Source: an uncultured Eubacteriales bacterium
Lineage (GTDB): Bacteria; Bacillota_A; Clostridia; Christensenellales; Aristaeellaceae
Direction: 5' to 3'
NCBI GenBank assembly: GCA_902766515.1
Contig: CACXEB010000006.1
Span: 1 to 10,080 of the forward strand
Length of the DNA: 10,080 nt
The translations under genes were made by a program, and so were the position numbers. Positions 1 to 4,734 of this stretch are shown piece after piece (position 1 is the first letter of the stretch; each line of letters begins with the position of its first letter). Under the pieces are notes generated by a model. That model searched no databases, was not told where the DNA came from, and was given only the letters and a program-made list of their open reading frames with translations.

Positions 1-1041
1 CACGCAGCCGGGGCCGATGGATTCGGACAGGCCATAGTTGGTATCGTACTGATGGTGCGGGAAGATGCTGAGCCAGCGCTTGATCAGGGACGGCGGCACC
101 GGCTGCGCACCGATGTGCATCAGCCGCCACTGGCCGAGCTGGTAGTCCGCCAGCCGGACATCGCCCCGGTCGATCGCGTCCAGGATGTCCTGCGCCCACG
201 GTACCAGCAGCCAGACGATGGTGCAGTGTTCATCGCTGACCGCTTTCAGGATCCATTCCGGGCGGGTGCCCTTCAGCAGCACCGCCTTGCCGCCGACCAG
301 GAAGCTGCCGAACCAGTGCATCTTGGCGCCGGTATGGTACAGGGGCGGAATGCACAGGAAGACGTCGTCATGGGTCTGGCCGTGATGATGCTGCTCCACC
401 TGCGCGGCGTGCATCAGCGAGCGGTGCCTGTGGAGGATGGCCTTGGGGAAGCCGGTGGTGCCGGACGAATAGTAGATCGCGCCGAAATCGTCATCCGTCA
501 GCGGGATGCGCGGGTTTTCCGACGAGCAGAAGCCGATCATCTGGTCATAGCTGTCCGCGAAGGTCGGGCATTCCTCACCGACGTAAAACAGATGGCGCAC
601 CTTGGGGATCCGGTCGCAGATTTCCTCCATGCGGCCGATGAATTCCGGGCCGAAGGCGAGCATGGTGCAGTCCGCCTTCTCCAGGCAGTAGCGGATCTCC
701 TCCGCGGTGTACCGGTAATTCAGCGGCACGGCCACGGCGCCTGCCCGCAGGATGCCGAAATATACCGGCAGCCACTCCAGCGAGTTCATCAGCAGGATGG
801 CCACCTTGTCACCCTTATGGCAGCCGCGCGTCAGCAGCAGGTTGGCGAACCGGTTCGCCTTCAGGTCGAAGTCCTTCCAGCTGAGCTCCCTGCGGAACAG
901 CTGGCCCGGTTCCGGCTGCATGAGCGAATACTCGCGCCAGGTGATCCGGCTTTCCGGTTCAAACTTCGGGTTGATCTCCACGAGGGCTGTTTCCTGCCCG
1001 TACAGTTCAGCGTTGCGGGCCAGGATGTCGGTAATGGGCAT
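1..1041 (-). CDS. AMP-forming acyl-CoA synthetase (class I adenylate-forming enzyme), 3' end outside window
   Basis: The visible 347 residues match the N-terminal part of the ANL superfamily, which activates a carboxylic acid with ATP to an acyl-adenylate and then transfers it to CoA. The phosphate-binding loop is YYSSGTTGFPK at residues 190-200. The PLYHTG motif is at 233-238 and the adenine/acyl-pocket motif, here YGLSES, at 336-341; the family more often has YGxTE. The small C-terminal lid domain lies beyond position 1. The ATG at 1041 is chosen because AGGAGG sits 9 bases upstream (1051-1056) and the protein begins like the family (MPITDILARNAELYG). The gene starts 31 bases after the T-tract of a T-box terminator, so it is the first gene under that switch. 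The substrate cannot be read from this fragment. A fatty-acid or aromatic-acid ligase is possible; the T-box makes an amino-acid-related acid worth considering. Family assignment is firm, specificity is not. Confidence 0.93.
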   Translation of the reverse strand, partial: MPITDILARNAELYGQETALVEINPKFEPESRITWREYSLMQPEPGQLFRRELSWKDFDLKANRFANLLLTRGCHKGDKVAILLMNSLEWLPVYFGILRAGAVAVPLNYRYTAEEIRYCLEKADCTMLAFGPEFIGRMEEICDRIPKVRHLFYVGEECPTFADSYDQMIGFCSSENPRIPLTDDDFGAIYYSSGTTGFPKAILHRHRSLMHAAQVEQHHHGQTHDDVFLCIPPLYHTGAKMHWFGSFLVGGKAVLLKGTRPEWILKAVSDEHCTIVWLLVPWAQDILDAIDRGDVRLADYQLGQWRLMHIGAQPVPPSLIKRWLSIFPHHQYDTNYGLSESIGPGCV

Positions 1042-1072
1042 ATGCAGATACCTCCTGTTTCAGCGGGGCAAT

Positions 1073-1110
1073 AAAAAATCGCCCTCCGCCAGATCATGGA
1101 AGAGGACGAT
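1073..1110 (-). terminator. T-box intrinsic terminator
   Basis: On the minus strand ATCGTCCTC (1102-1110) pairs fully with GAGGGCGAT (1078-1086), nine pairs with one G-U, and a run of six T follows (1073-1078). The 5' arm overlaps the CCTCT needed for the antiterminator, so the two structures exclude each other, as expected for a transcriptional T-box. Confidence 0.92.
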
Positions 1111-1337
1111 AAGGAATCTTACCGCGGTACCACCTCTGTTGCCGGCAGACGTCGCTGCCAACCACTCAACAGCGCTTTGACGGGCGCCCCCGGCGCAGCC
1201 TACGCAGGGCAGCATAAGGCCCCTTCGGTGCGCGACTCGCGGGCTGTATTCGGCCGTCCTCCGCCTGCTGCCTCGCACCGTCCGGCAGTTCTCTGAGCGG
1301 CGTTCGGATGCCTACTTGCTCCCGGTCATCGTCTCTG
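1073..1337 (-). promoter_or_regulatory. T-box riboswitch leader, probably tRNA-Tyr responsive
   Basis: Read on the minus strand, this leader carries the full set of T-box landmarks. Near its 5' end is AAGTA, one side of the specifier loop. The AG bulge region CAGAGAACTGCC follows, then GGACGGTGCGAGGCAG closing the distal stem I. The other side of the specifier loop is GAATACA (1245-1251), with TAC at 1246-1248 as the apparent specifier codon for tyrosine. A stem III (GTTGGCAG paired with CTGC..CAAC, about 1142-1166) precedes the T-box sequence AGAGGTGGTACCGCGG (1122-1137). In it, TGGT (1129-1132) would pair with an ACCA tRNA end, that is discriminator base A, which fits tRNA-Tyr. AGAGG (1133-1137) can pair with CCTCT (1101-1105) as antiterminator, in competition with the terminator. 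Uncharged tRNA should allow read-through into the acyl-CoA synthetase gene. ACA (Thr) is the alternative codon register and fits less well. The class is near certain, the amino acid moderately so. Confidence 0.93.
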
Positions 1338-1343
1338 CCCTGC

Positions 1344-1372
1344 ATTATAACCATATTTTCCCGGTGCGTCAA
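1344..1372 (-). promoter_or_regulatory. Sigma-A promoter of the T-box/acyl-CoA synthetase transcript
   Basis: The minus strand has TTGACG (1367-1372) as the -35 element and a perfect TATAAT (1344-1349) as the -10 element, separated by exactly 17 bases. Transcription should start near 1337, just before the first helix of the T-box. No operator-like palindrome overlaps the promoter, so the T-box is probably the main control. Confidence 0.9.
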
Positions 1373-2013: not shown

Positions 2014-3296
2014 GCTTCCTCCGCCTCGACGCGCAACACGTTCATCACTTTGACCAGCTGGGGATCAAAGGCGGCGATCGCGGCGCGGACGTTTTTCTCG
2101 CTGGCCGGATGCGTCAGGATCGTGATCTGCGCGCCTTCCTCGGCGCGCTCCTCGGGCTGCAGCAGCGCCTTGACGCCGATCTGGTGTGCGGAGAGGGAGG
2201 CCGCCACATGGGCCAGCACGCCCGTCGCGTCGCGGGCGGACAGCCGGATGTAGAAGGCGCTCCTGCGGTCCGTGAGCATCACGGCGTTTCCCGCCTGGTC
2301 CACACACGGAGACTTTGCCGTCCGCTCGTCCGAGGTCGCGATGATCGCGTTGATCAGGTCGCTCATCATCGCGCCCGCCGTGGGCGCGCTGCCCGCGCCG
2401 CGGCCGTAGATCATCATATCCCCGCAGGCGTGCCCGTGCAGGAAGACCGCGTTGAAGGCGCCGTTCACGCTGCTCAGCGGATGGTGCAGGGGCACGAGCA
2501 TCGGGGACACGAACGCGTCCATGCCGGCCTCGGTCTGGGTGGCGTGCGCCAGGAGCTTGATGGCGTAGCCCAGCTCCCGGGCGTTGCGGATATCGTCCTG
2601 GGTGACATGGGTCATGCCTTCCCGCTCGATCGCGGTGACCGGCAGGTGGCGGTGGAACGCCAGGGAGGACAGGATAGACAGCTTGTACATGGCGTCCTCG
2701 CCCTCGACGTCCGCGGTCGGGTCCGGCTCCGCCAGGCCCAGGGCCTGCGCGTCGCGGAGCACCTCCTGGTAACCCAGGCCTTCGCTGCTCATGCGGGTCA
2801 GCAGGTAGTTGGTCGTCCCGTTGATGATCGCCGTCAGCCGGTCGATCCGGTTGGCCTGCAGGGAGTCCTGCAGGATCTTGATGATCGGCATCGCGCCGCC
2901 TACGGCCGCCTCGTAATACAGCGTCGCCTGGCCTGCCGCCGCGGCGTCGTGCAGCTCGCGCCAGTGCAGCGCCAGCGCCATCTTGTTGGCTGTCACCACA
3001 TGCTTGCCGGCGCGAAGCGCCTCGCACATCCAGTCCGCGGAGGGATGCTCGCCGCCCAGGCACTCAATGACATACCGGATGTCCGGATCCCGGAGGATCA
3101 CATCCTTATCGTCCGTCAGCAGGGAGCTGTCCACATAGTCTGGCCGCTTCTTGCCCAGGTCGCGCACGAGGATGGCCTTCATCACCGGATCAATCTGGTA
3201 GTTTTCCCGGAAGGACGGCGCCATTTCCCGCAGCAGCTTGGCGACGCCGCTGCCGATGTTGCCGCATCCCAGCAGGCCGATGCACATGGTCTTCAT
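2010..3296 (-). CDS. hom: Homoserine dehydrogenase with C-terminal ACT domain
   Basis: This enzyme reduces aspartate semialdehyde to homoserine with NAD(P)H, the branch point to threonine and methionine. At 428 residues it has the usual length for the form with a regulatory domain. The nucleotide-binding motif GLLGCGNIGSG is at 7-17, VVTANK at 100-105 and NGTTNY at 160-164. The signature around AEPDPTADVEGEDAMYKL (189-206) includes the expected catalytic Asp201 and Lys205, aligned by memory with yeast Asp219 and Lys223. YGRGAGSAPTAGAM is at 297-310. An ACT domain from about 349 to 425 predicts feedback control, usually by threonine. The ATG at 3296 overlaps the coaX stop as ATGA, with CGGAGG upstream inside coaX. 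The next gene downstream overlaps its stop in the same way. Pairing hom with CoA genes is unusual; no thrB, thrC or aspartokinase gene is in the window. Confidence 0.97.
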   Translation of the reverse strand: MKTMCIGLLGCGNIGSGVAKLLREMAPSFRENYQIDPVMKAILVRDLGKKRPDYVDSSLLTDDKDVILRDPDIRYVIECLGGEHPSADWMCEALRAGKHVVTANKMALALHWRELHDAAAAGQATLYYEAAVGGAMPIIKILQDSLQANRIDRLTAIINGTTNYLLTRMSSEGLGYQEVLRDAQALGLAEPDPTADVEGEDAMYKLSILSSLAFHRHLPVTAIEREGMTHVTQDDIRNARELGYAIKLLAHATQTEAGMDAFVSPMLVPLHHPLSSVNGAFNAVFLHGHACGDMMIYGRGAGSAPTAGAMMSDLINAIIATSDERTAKSPCVDQAGNAVMLTDRRSAFYIRLSARDATGVLAHVAASLSAHQIGVKALLQPEERAEEGAQITILTHPASEKNVRAAIAAFDPQLVKVMNVLRVEAEEA

Positions 3297-4075
3297 TCCG
3301 CGTTTCCTCCGAAATTCTTGTAGTAGATGGTCAGCAGGCCCTTGAGCGTCAGCAGGCCGTCGATCCGGGTGATCATTTTCGATTCCTGGGCGATCAGCTT
3401 GGAGAACCCGCCCGTCGCGATGACATGTGCGTCCGGGCAGCCCATCTCAGCCCGCAGGCGGCCGATCAGGTAATTCACCTGGCCGACGTAGCCGAAGAAG
3501 ATGCCCGACTGCATGTTCGCGATGGTGTTCCTGCCGATCACATGCTCCGGCTGCAGCAGCTCGAAGTTGGGCAGCTTCGCCGTGCCGTGCACCAGCGCGT
3601 CGCTGGCCAGGCGGACGCCGGGGCAGATGCAGCCGCCCAGGAACGCGCCGCCCGCGTCCAGGACGCCGAAGGTGGTCGCCGTGCCGAAATCGATGAATAT
3701 GCAGTTCCCGCCGTATTCCGTATAGGTGGCCACCGCGTTGCAGATGCGGTCGCTGCCCAGTTCCCGCGGGTTTTCGTACTTGATGTCGATGCCCGTCCGG
3801 ATGCCGGGGGATACGAAGGCAGGATTCACATTGAAATAATCCCGGCACATGTGCTCCACCGTATAATTGATGGACGGCACGACGCTGCTGAGCATGATCC
3901 CCCCGACGGCGCCCATATCGACGTTCCGGCTGTGGAACAGGCTGGATACCAGCACGCCCAGCTCGTCCGAGGTATACGTCGCCTTGGTGGCCAGGCGCCA
4001 GTACTGCTTCAGGTTCCGGCCCTCAAACAGGCCGATCTTGATGTTGGTATTGCCCACATCCATGGTCAGGATCAT
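3293..4075 (-). CDS. coaX: Type III pantothenate kinase
   Basis: The enzyme phosphorylates pantothenate with ATP, the first step of coenzyme A synthesis in the cytoplasm. The 260 residues show the type III (ASKHA-fold) signatures: DVGNTN at 6-11 (phosphate binding), PRELGSDR at 103-110 with the presumed catalytic Asp109, DFGTATT at 129-135, and ATGG at 220-223. Type III kinases are generally insensitive to CoA feedback, so supply may be set at uptake by the transporter gene just upstream. The ATG at 4075 is preceded by AAGGAAG about 10 bases away. An internal ATG four codons later is possible, but the longer start matches the usual few residues before DVGNTN. The gap to the upstream ECF gene is 41 bases; the stop overlaps the hom start by four bases, implying translational coupling. 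Confidence 0.97.
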   Translation of the reverse strand: MILTMDVGNTNIKIGLFEGRNLKQYWRLATKATYTSDELGVLVSSLFHSRNVDMGAVGGIMLSSVVPSINYTVEHMCRDYFNVNPAFVSPGIRTGIDIKYENPRELGSDRICNAVATYTEYGGNCIFIDFGTATTFGVLDAGGAFLGGCICPGVRLASDALVHGTAKLPNFELLQPEHVIGRNTIANMQSGIFFGYVGQVNYLIGRLRAEMGCPDAHVIATGGFSKLIAQESKMITRIDGLLTLKGLLTIYYKNFGGNAE

Positions 4076-4116
4076 GTTCCGTTCTTCCTTCCGTTATCGT
4101 ACTGTATGCTGTCCGC

Positions 4117-4734
4117 TCATTCCCTGTGGAGCGCCGTCTGCAGCGCCTTGCTGACCGCCGTGGCGATCACGCCGCAGGCCGCCGCTTCGATCAGGGCCTG
4201 GGTGCCGACCATCACGCCGACCAGCAGGATCGGGTTGCTGACGCCCGTCTTCGCAACGACGCCCTGGATGTATTCGCTGTGATAGAACAGCAGCATCAGC
4301 AGGCCCATAAAGAAGAAGGTGTTCAGCAGCGGCGCGGCCAGGCTGCCCGCGATATTGTCCACGATGCTCTTCGGCTTCGTTACCCTGCGCACTGCCTTGA
4401 CGATCAGGCCGGTGCAGATGCCCATCAGCACGCGGCCGACCACACAGACCACGAACGCGCCCGGGATGCTGACGCTGTACATGGCGATCGTCATCGGGGA
4501 CGAACTGGAAAAACCGTTGATGAAGCTCGTGATGCCGAAAACCAGTCCCAGCGCCGCGCTGGCCCAGGGGCCGAGCAGGATCGCGCCGACCGCCACCGGG
4601 ATGGTCAGCAGGGACGCCGCCAGGAAGGGCAGGTTCAGGTAGCCCAGGGGGGTGACGCTCATCACGATCTCCACCGCGACGAGCAGGGCAAATTCGCAGA
4701 GCTGAAGCGTTTTGGGGTTGCGAAACTGTTTCAT
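4117..4734 (-). CDS. ECF transporter S component, probably pantothenate-specific
   Basis: The 205-residue protein is very hydrophobic with about six predicted membrane spans (roughly 12-30, 37-55, 57-75, 84-113, 128-152 and 168-195), the size and topology of substrate-binding S components of energy-coupling factor vitamin transporters. S components bind the vitamin in the membrane and share a common EcfA/A'/T energy module encoded elsewhere; no such genes are visible here. Directly upstream of pantothenate kinase, pantothenate is the most likely substrate (a PanT-like role), but this rests on context and not on a substrate motif. The ATG at 4734 has GGAGG six bases upstream. It is the first gene after a 176-base gap, so it probably opens the transporter-coaX-hom unit, although no convincing promoter is seen. 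Confidence 0.85.
   Translation of the reverse strand: MKQFRNPKTLQLCEFALLVAVEIVMSVTPLGYLNLPFLAASLLTIPVAVGAILLGPWASAALGLVFGITSFINGFSSSSPMTIAMYSVSIPGAFVVCVVGRVLMGICTGLIVKAVRRVTKPKSIVDNIAGSLAAPLLNTFFFMGLLMLLFYHSEYIQGVVAKTGVSNPILLVGVMVGTQALIEAAACGVIATAVSKALQTALHRE

Follow-up and report, generated by a model that had tools for sequence, protein, structure and literature searches.

The ligase gene and its leader

The window, by which we mean the whole stretch of 10,080 nucleotides analysed here, opens with part of a gene for an AMP-forming acyl- or aryl-CoA ligase. The gene is read on the minus strand from position 1041, behind an AGGAGG ribosome-binding site, and its frame runs off the window at position 1. 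It is preceded by a T-box leader and a promoter, and the features of this region are as follows.

1..1041, minus strand: AMP-forming acyl/aryl-CoA ligase, 347 amino acids visible, open at position 1 (PF00501, 197.8 bits)
1051..1056, minus strand: ribosome-binding site AGGAGG, from the sequence
1072..1110, minus strand: intrinsic terminator, a hairpin (1110..1078) followed by a U run (1077..1072), -18.1 kcal/mol
1099..1338, minus strand: T-box leader comprising stem I with AGAGA and GGUG motifs, specifier loop and antiterminator (RF00230, E 3e-20, full model length)
1102..1136, minus strand: antiterminator helix, from the Rfam match and leader comparison
1129..1132, minus strand: antiterminator bulge UGGU, which fits the ACCA end of tRNA-Tyr
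1246..1248, minus strand: specifier codon UAC (Tyr), right after a conserved GAA (1251..1249), from the sequence, the Rfam match and aligned leaders
1344..1372, minus strand: sigma-70-type promoter TTGACG-17-TATAAT, 11 of 12 consensus bases

The sequence-only reading had placed a complete T-box unit directly before an AMP-forming acyl-CoA ligase, and promoter, stem I, specifier, antiterminator and terminator were all located. The Rfam T-box model, proposed there as a check, matches 1338..1099 of the minus strand, clears its curated cut-off narrowly (94.6 versus 93 bits) and gives the sole Rfam match at the gathering threshold anywhere in the window; an archaeal RNase P match inside the leader (23.7 versus 84 bits) was discarded. 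The 5' strand of the terminator overlaps the 3' strand of the antiterminator, and by this sharing of sequence the two structures are mutually exclusive. A simple terminator scan did not list the window's terminator because it permitted loops of 3-8 only. Within 1000-2020, TTGACG-17-TATAAT is the one promoter-like site, while shuffled sequences hold a mean of 0.3. As a single strand, 1060-1372 folds with no extra stability over shuffled sequence (z 0.19; 53 of 100 shuffles fold equally well or better). Since the Rfam margin is small and the lone fold does not go beyond the shuffles, conservation was needed to settle that this is a T-box.

Upstream of the promoter lies a 637-base intergenic stretch (1373-2009) with two inverted repeats, at 1421-1475 and 1635-1732. 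Elsewhere in the window (3293-4734), a type III pantothenate kinase adjoins the substrate subunit of an ECF transporter, which might, by neighbourhood only, be a pantothenate importer.

Conservation of the leader among related ligase loci

A collection of species genomes was scanned with the window's ligase fragment; at least 596 stretches matched, with at least 589 relatives, and the best 80 loci were kept. Almost all of these are metagenome-assembled, and many are labelled as ruminant, deer or horse gut samples. A T-box stands at the head of the orthologous operon in 27 of the best 80 loci: a motif scan found its core no more than 600 bases upstream of the ligase in 22, and in L033, L040, L062, L072 and L073 it precedes a symporter gene that lies directly upstream of the ligase. 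All 22 ligase-first leaders match RF00230 and 19 exceed its cut-off, with L024, L043 and L061 falling below it at E values from 1.8e-18 to 1e-14. Rfam confirmed the symporter-first T-boxes of L033, L040 and L072, and those of L062 (E 8.9e-53) and L073 (E 7.7e-57) were recovered by profile search alone; a listing of L033 as T-box-free was rejected because a T-box precedes its symporter gene. Among 23 leaders, the 22 ligase-first ones and the window's, a terminator-like hairpin with a U run comes after the T-box in 22 (the miss is L010), compared with 6 of 115 shuffled controls. As all 22 ligase-first leaders match the model, the identity of the window leader is settled: it is confirmed as a canonical transcriptional T-box, with predicted tRNA-dependent readthrough.

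Might this leader nonetheless be a stray copy of a Tyr T-box, behind which the ligase arrived by rearrangement and came under accidental control? T-boxes are numerous, with 7 to 18 matches per genome in six genomes, and the T-box label is scattered over the ligase tree with 12 changes, so that gains or losses appear to have been frequent. Even so, 12 changes lie below all of 500 shuffles (mean 20.1), in a test in which L018 is misplaced, the five symporter-first leaders are uncounted and related rows ease clustering. On this tree 26 of the 27 T-box loci fall within one Clostridia clade of 54 loci and the window; the remaining one, L018, is misplaced because of an internal stop in its frame. 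Leader and operon thus remain linked in 26 of that clade's 54 loci and in L018, the codon is almost always kept, and tyrS has its own, separate T-box in genomes G003 and G008. We consider accidental control very unlikely. Relatives in which the leader precedes a synthetase instead of the operon were sought, and none was found among the best 80 related loci.

No T-box was detected at the operon head in 53 of the best 80 ligase loci, among which L008 and L046 have fewer than 100 bases upstream. L002, one of the two nearest relatives among the best 80 loci, is included here: its ligase, like that of L001, is 94% identical to the window's (best segment), and outside the start region its upstream DNA does not align well with that of the window. 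A possible T-box remnant in L039 (17.7 bits, E 0.13) was not accepted. Among the best 80 loci no T-box was found in a Lentisphaerota clade of 16 rows, 14 so labelled and two unlabelled (L045, L047, L049-L051, L053, L055, L057, L060, L063, L064, L066, L071 and L077-L079), whose ligases are about 70% identical, nor in nine rows outside both clades, eight of them labelled Lachnospiraceae. Genome G003 has two ligase loci (L003 and L004), each behind its own Tyr T-box; the contig of L003 terminates within the ligase.

Specifier register and tRNA identity

The specifier loop of the window reads GAA-UAC-A. UAC (Tyr) is the specifier in the window and in 26 of the 27 related leaders, the symporter-first leaders included (5 of 5). 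In the alignment, the window shares GAA-UAC with 18 of the 22 relatives whose leader lies directly before the ligase; L035, L043 and L061 have one additional base (GAAU-UAC), and the one exception in the codon is the leader of L017 (L017:4823-5080), with GAA-UUC. The latter is called Phe by codon alone, and suggests a switch of product within the ligase-leader family. The UGGU bulge is present in the window and in all 27 related leaders. Among tRNAs from four related genomes, tRNA-Tyr (anticodon GUA) ends in ACCA in 4 of 4, its discriminator base being A, so that codon and bulge fit one and the same tRNA.

A register one base later would give the codon ACA and make the leader a tRNA-Thr sensor, with an operon unrelated to tyrosine. 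We considered it because nine bases separate codon and GAG in four synthetase leaders of related genomes, three of valS and one of ileS, where most ligase leaders have ten. Nine bases counted back from the conserved GAG lead to Thr codons, ACA in the window and in a few relatives ACG or ACC. However, tRNA-Thr (anticodon UGU) ends in UCCA in 3 of 3 cases from related genomes and, with U as discriminator, would require UGGA, whereas the window and all 27 leaders have UGGU; a thrS leader (L096) does pair an ACC specifier with UGGA. GAA-UAC with the nine-base spacing is itself found in two tyrS leaders and in the ligase leaders L052 and L069. Moreover, the later register turns the codon of L017 into Ser, and tRNA-Ser ends in GCCA, not ACCA (discriminator G; 3 of 3 from related genomes). 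The tyrS leaders of G003 and G008 are separate Tyr T-boxes (103.6 and 91.1 bits, the latter slightly under the cut-off), both with GAA-UAC and UGGU. Because the discriminator bases and the tyrS leaders disagree with it, we rejected the Thr register, which we hold to be extremely improbable.

The earlier suggestion that UAC and UGGU indicate tRNA-Tyr is therefore upheld by the window, by 26 of 27 leaders, by the discriminator bases and by the tyrS leaders, and no non-Tyr codon was found in the window's specifier. Comparison thus supports a window T-box specific for tRNA-Tyr.

The operon and the symporter in relatives

The ligase reached no cut-off among curated ligase families, and the nearest solved ligase structures include fatty-acid and aryl-acid enzymes alike; neither families nor structures decided its substrate. 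Its neighbours are more telling. Since the window ends within the ligase, iorAB is known from relatives alone, and we infer that the genome of the window itself carries it past position 1. In L001 and L002, iorA and iorB come after the ligase, and in L001, a relative, both products lie above their curated cut-offs (IorA, TIGR03336, 719.6 versus 650.9 bits; IorB, 288.9 versus 230). Directly 3' of the ligase, iorA is found in 41 of the 75 loci with room among the best 80. Among loci with room it adjoins the ligase in 20 of the 25 that have a T-box, as against 21 of the 50 in which none was detected (Fisher p 0.003, for related rows that are not independent). Within the available stretches of the 27 T-box loci, iorB occurs in 17, a PaaK-like ligase with an ACT protein in nine and an aminotransferase in four; the protein of L035 is PaaK-like and not certified PaaK, as it scores under the PaaK cut-off (TIGR02155; 543.4 versus 646.3 bits). 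The five T-box loci with room but no iorA beside the ligase (L028, L037, L041, L043 and L061) count against the operon as proposed; the genomes of L028, L037 and L041 have a full IorA on a different contig. IorA exceeds its cut-off in 22 of 25 genomes, with partial matches in the other three. No adjoining iorA was found for the Lentisphaerota-clade ligases in the available stretches. From the 21 loci with an iorA neighbour and no detected T-box, it appears that the operon is also run without the Tyr switch. In L006 (G005:C69:4981-6688) the iorA match is split in two pieces, suggestive of a broken gene or an assembly error.

These relatives bear on two further points of the sequence-only reading. 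It had the T-box directly controlling the ligase; the relatives indicate that the T-box heads a whole operon. It had also assigned the ligase, or genes past position 1, to tyrosine or aromatic-acid metabolism, with which the indolepyruvate:ferredoxin oxidoreductase subunits carried by relatives agree.

In 12 of the best 80 loci the ligase has a same-strand neighbour for a sodium:solute symporter (PF00474 in L028), placed after it in L028 and before it in the 11 others; the match in L076 is weak (39% identity). For six of those in which it lies upstream of the ligase (L030, L034, L042, L056, L058 and L076), no T-box was detectable. In G008 a symporter is also near a second ligase and IorA (L121). 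Homologues of the L028 symporter, 61 to 74% identical, lie directly behind Tyr T-boxes in G003 (L177), G006 (L119), G008 (L097) and G009 (L173); the first three leaders were confirmed by Rfam and that of L173 by motifs and profile (E 1.6e-44). Because ligase and symporter have codon and operon in common, the symporter is the best candidate for an importer of the aryl acid, the alternative being that it would import tyrosine.

Proposed function

Gene sequence alone gives neither the direction of the oxidoreductase, which may make or break amino acids, nor the acid taken by the ligase. A T-box in front of such genes adds both kinds of information, since a starvation-induced operon points to synthesis and the codon to the product. 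We think it likely that the canonical tRNA-Tyr T-box controls an operon that supplies tyrosine by salvage of an aryl acid; the chemistry and its direction, that is, the ligase substrate and the sense in which IorAB runs, are what we infer.

In our model, uncharged tRNA-Tyr would base-pair both with UAC in the specifier loop and with UGGU in the bulge, so that the antiterminator forms and RNA polymerase continues into the operon. The sodium symporter, where present, would import the aryl acid, most likely 4-hydroxyphenylacetate, and the ligase would convert it to its CoA ester. IorAB, with reduced ferredoxin, would then carboxylate the CoA ester reductively to 4-hydroxyphenylpyruvate, from which an aminotransferase would form tyrosine. 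The same enzymes could take phenylacetate to phenylalanine.

The opposite direction has to be weighed. In a catabolic operon, IorAB would oxidise aryl pyruvates arising from tyrosine breakdown, and the ligase would dispose of the CoA ester or gain energy from it. Ior genes by themselves leave the direction open, and the available text of PMC6737245 describes IOR as an enzyme of archaeal peptide fermentation; in addition, the ligase-iorA pair is kept in the 21 loci without a detected T-box. The same text also gives phenylacetyl-CoA ligase with Ior as a synthetic route in methanogens. T-boxes raise expression when the cognate tRNA is uncharged (PMC7778990, available text), and the operon should therefore make, not break, tyrosine: breakdown would be turned up just when charged tRNA-Tyr is scarce and it would be harmful. 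The linked aminotransferase, ACT protein and symporter suit synthesis, though certain catabolic roles would suit them as well, and four related genomes have clusters of comparable organisation whose T-boxes appear to be specific for Ile and Val. On balance a catabolic role is unlikely. Whether the aryl acid is a precursor or a breakdown product had at first been left open; the starvation-induced switch favours the precursor side over breakdown.

The salvage operon would not stand alone in its hosts. Of 25 host genomes, 20 gave a match for TyrA and 23 one for chorismate synthase. Four of the five without a TyrA match (G001, G003, G007 and G008) belong to the 16 genomes that have a T-box at the ligase, and the fifth is one of the other nine; assembly gaps may account for these absences. 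As TyrA and chorismate synthase are widely kept, we rejected the operon as sole source of tyrosine for most genomes; with the ordinary route in place in most hosts, it would be mostly supplementary.

Relation to known systems

That bacteria of the rumen can re-form amino acids out of organic acids is long established. If our reading is right, it supplies candidates, a transporter among them, for the genes that salvage aryl acids in uncultured Clostridia of the gut, and is relevant both to gut 4-hydroxyphenylacetate and phenylacetate and to how ruminants are supplied with amino acids.

The formation of phenylalanine from phenylacetate in the rumen (Allison 1965 and others, as cited in PMC7356843) is the same kind of chemistry as proposed here, in the same habitat. 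In the available text of PMC7356843, rumen cultures convert phenylacetate to phenylalanine and phenylalanine to tyrosine; 4-hydroxyphenylacetate and its conversion to tyrosine are not named there, nor are genes or regulation. The aryl-acid route of methanogens (PMC6737245, PMC4162585) likewise combines a CoA ligase with IorAB in reductive carboxylation. It differs in being archaeal, with no T-box mentioned in the available parts of these papers, whereas here symporter, ACT protein and aminotransferase are linked in some relatives.

The Tyr T-boxes before tyrS (RF00230) resemble the window's in the full model match, GAA-UAC, UGGU and the strand shared by antiterminator and terminator. The difference is in the target, here an acyl-CoA ligase and a 2-oxoacid:ferredoxin oxidoreductase instead of a synthetase or a shikimate-pathway gene. 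In the Bacillus cereus group, according to the accessible part of PMC2494555, a Tyr T-box acts on the tyrosine-supply gene for phenylalanine-4-hydroxylase; it too sits on a less usual source of tyrosine, but with another enzyme and precursor, whereas here an organic acid would be carboxylated. In the open literature searched, we found no report that combines T-box, indolepyruvate and tyrosine. The accessible text of three T-box surveys (PMC2494555, PMC7778990, PMC3766115) yielded no mention of CoA or acyl-CoA, or of indolepyruvate or pyruvate; the parts available of PMC5171806 and PMC9045289 connect no T-box with a ferredoxin oxidoreductase, and those of PMC11304471 name iorAB in Bacteroides fragilis and say nothing on T-boxes. 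As an RNA the T-box is ordinary; the unusual part is its target, with no prior report found in that literature.

Parallel clusters, probably for branched-chain acids

Four related genomes (G001:C123, G004:C21, G006:C74 and G012:C47; L115-L118) contain two T-boxes clustered with genes for an acyl-CoA synthetase and a 2-oxoacid:ferredoxin oxidoreductase. Ten T-box matches were examined, of which eight lie in these clusters (one over the gathering score and seven below, E 7e-13 or better) and two precede leuA-like genes. When the codons are read by eye with the spacing of the valS and ileS leaders, the first T-box has AUC (Ile) in 4 of 4 clusters, and the second GUA or GUC (Val). MbcS is the best NCBIfam match of the synthetases in G001, G006 and G012, below its cut-off, and cupin domains are present in G012; the proteins of the G004 cluster were judged by eye. 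The G006 cluster includes a class IV aminotransferase, and that of G012 a VorB-type subunit above its cut-off (551 versus 399 bits). By their gene content and codons, these clusters resemble the tyrosine operon and are likely to represent a parallel salvage of branched-chain acids.

We incline, by somewhat more than an even chance, to a modular form of tRNA-sensing salvage. For several amino acids in turn, a codon-matched T-box would govern activation of the corresponding fermentation acid to its CoA ester and an oxidoreductase that carboxylates it back, giving tyrosine from 4-hydroxyphenylacetate, phenylalanine from phenylacetate, isoleucine from 2-methylbutyrate and valine from isobutyrate. 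If such a programme holds, the leader codon would show which product a ligase serves where nothing else can assign it, and would settle which way a reversible enzyme runs.

One further T-box was seen on contig G001:C76 (L104, L123). It scores 75.1 bits, under the cut-off; its specifier is apparently UGG (Trp) and its bulge UGGC. It precedes a homologue of L-lactate or malate dehydrogenase, followed by transporter-like genes.
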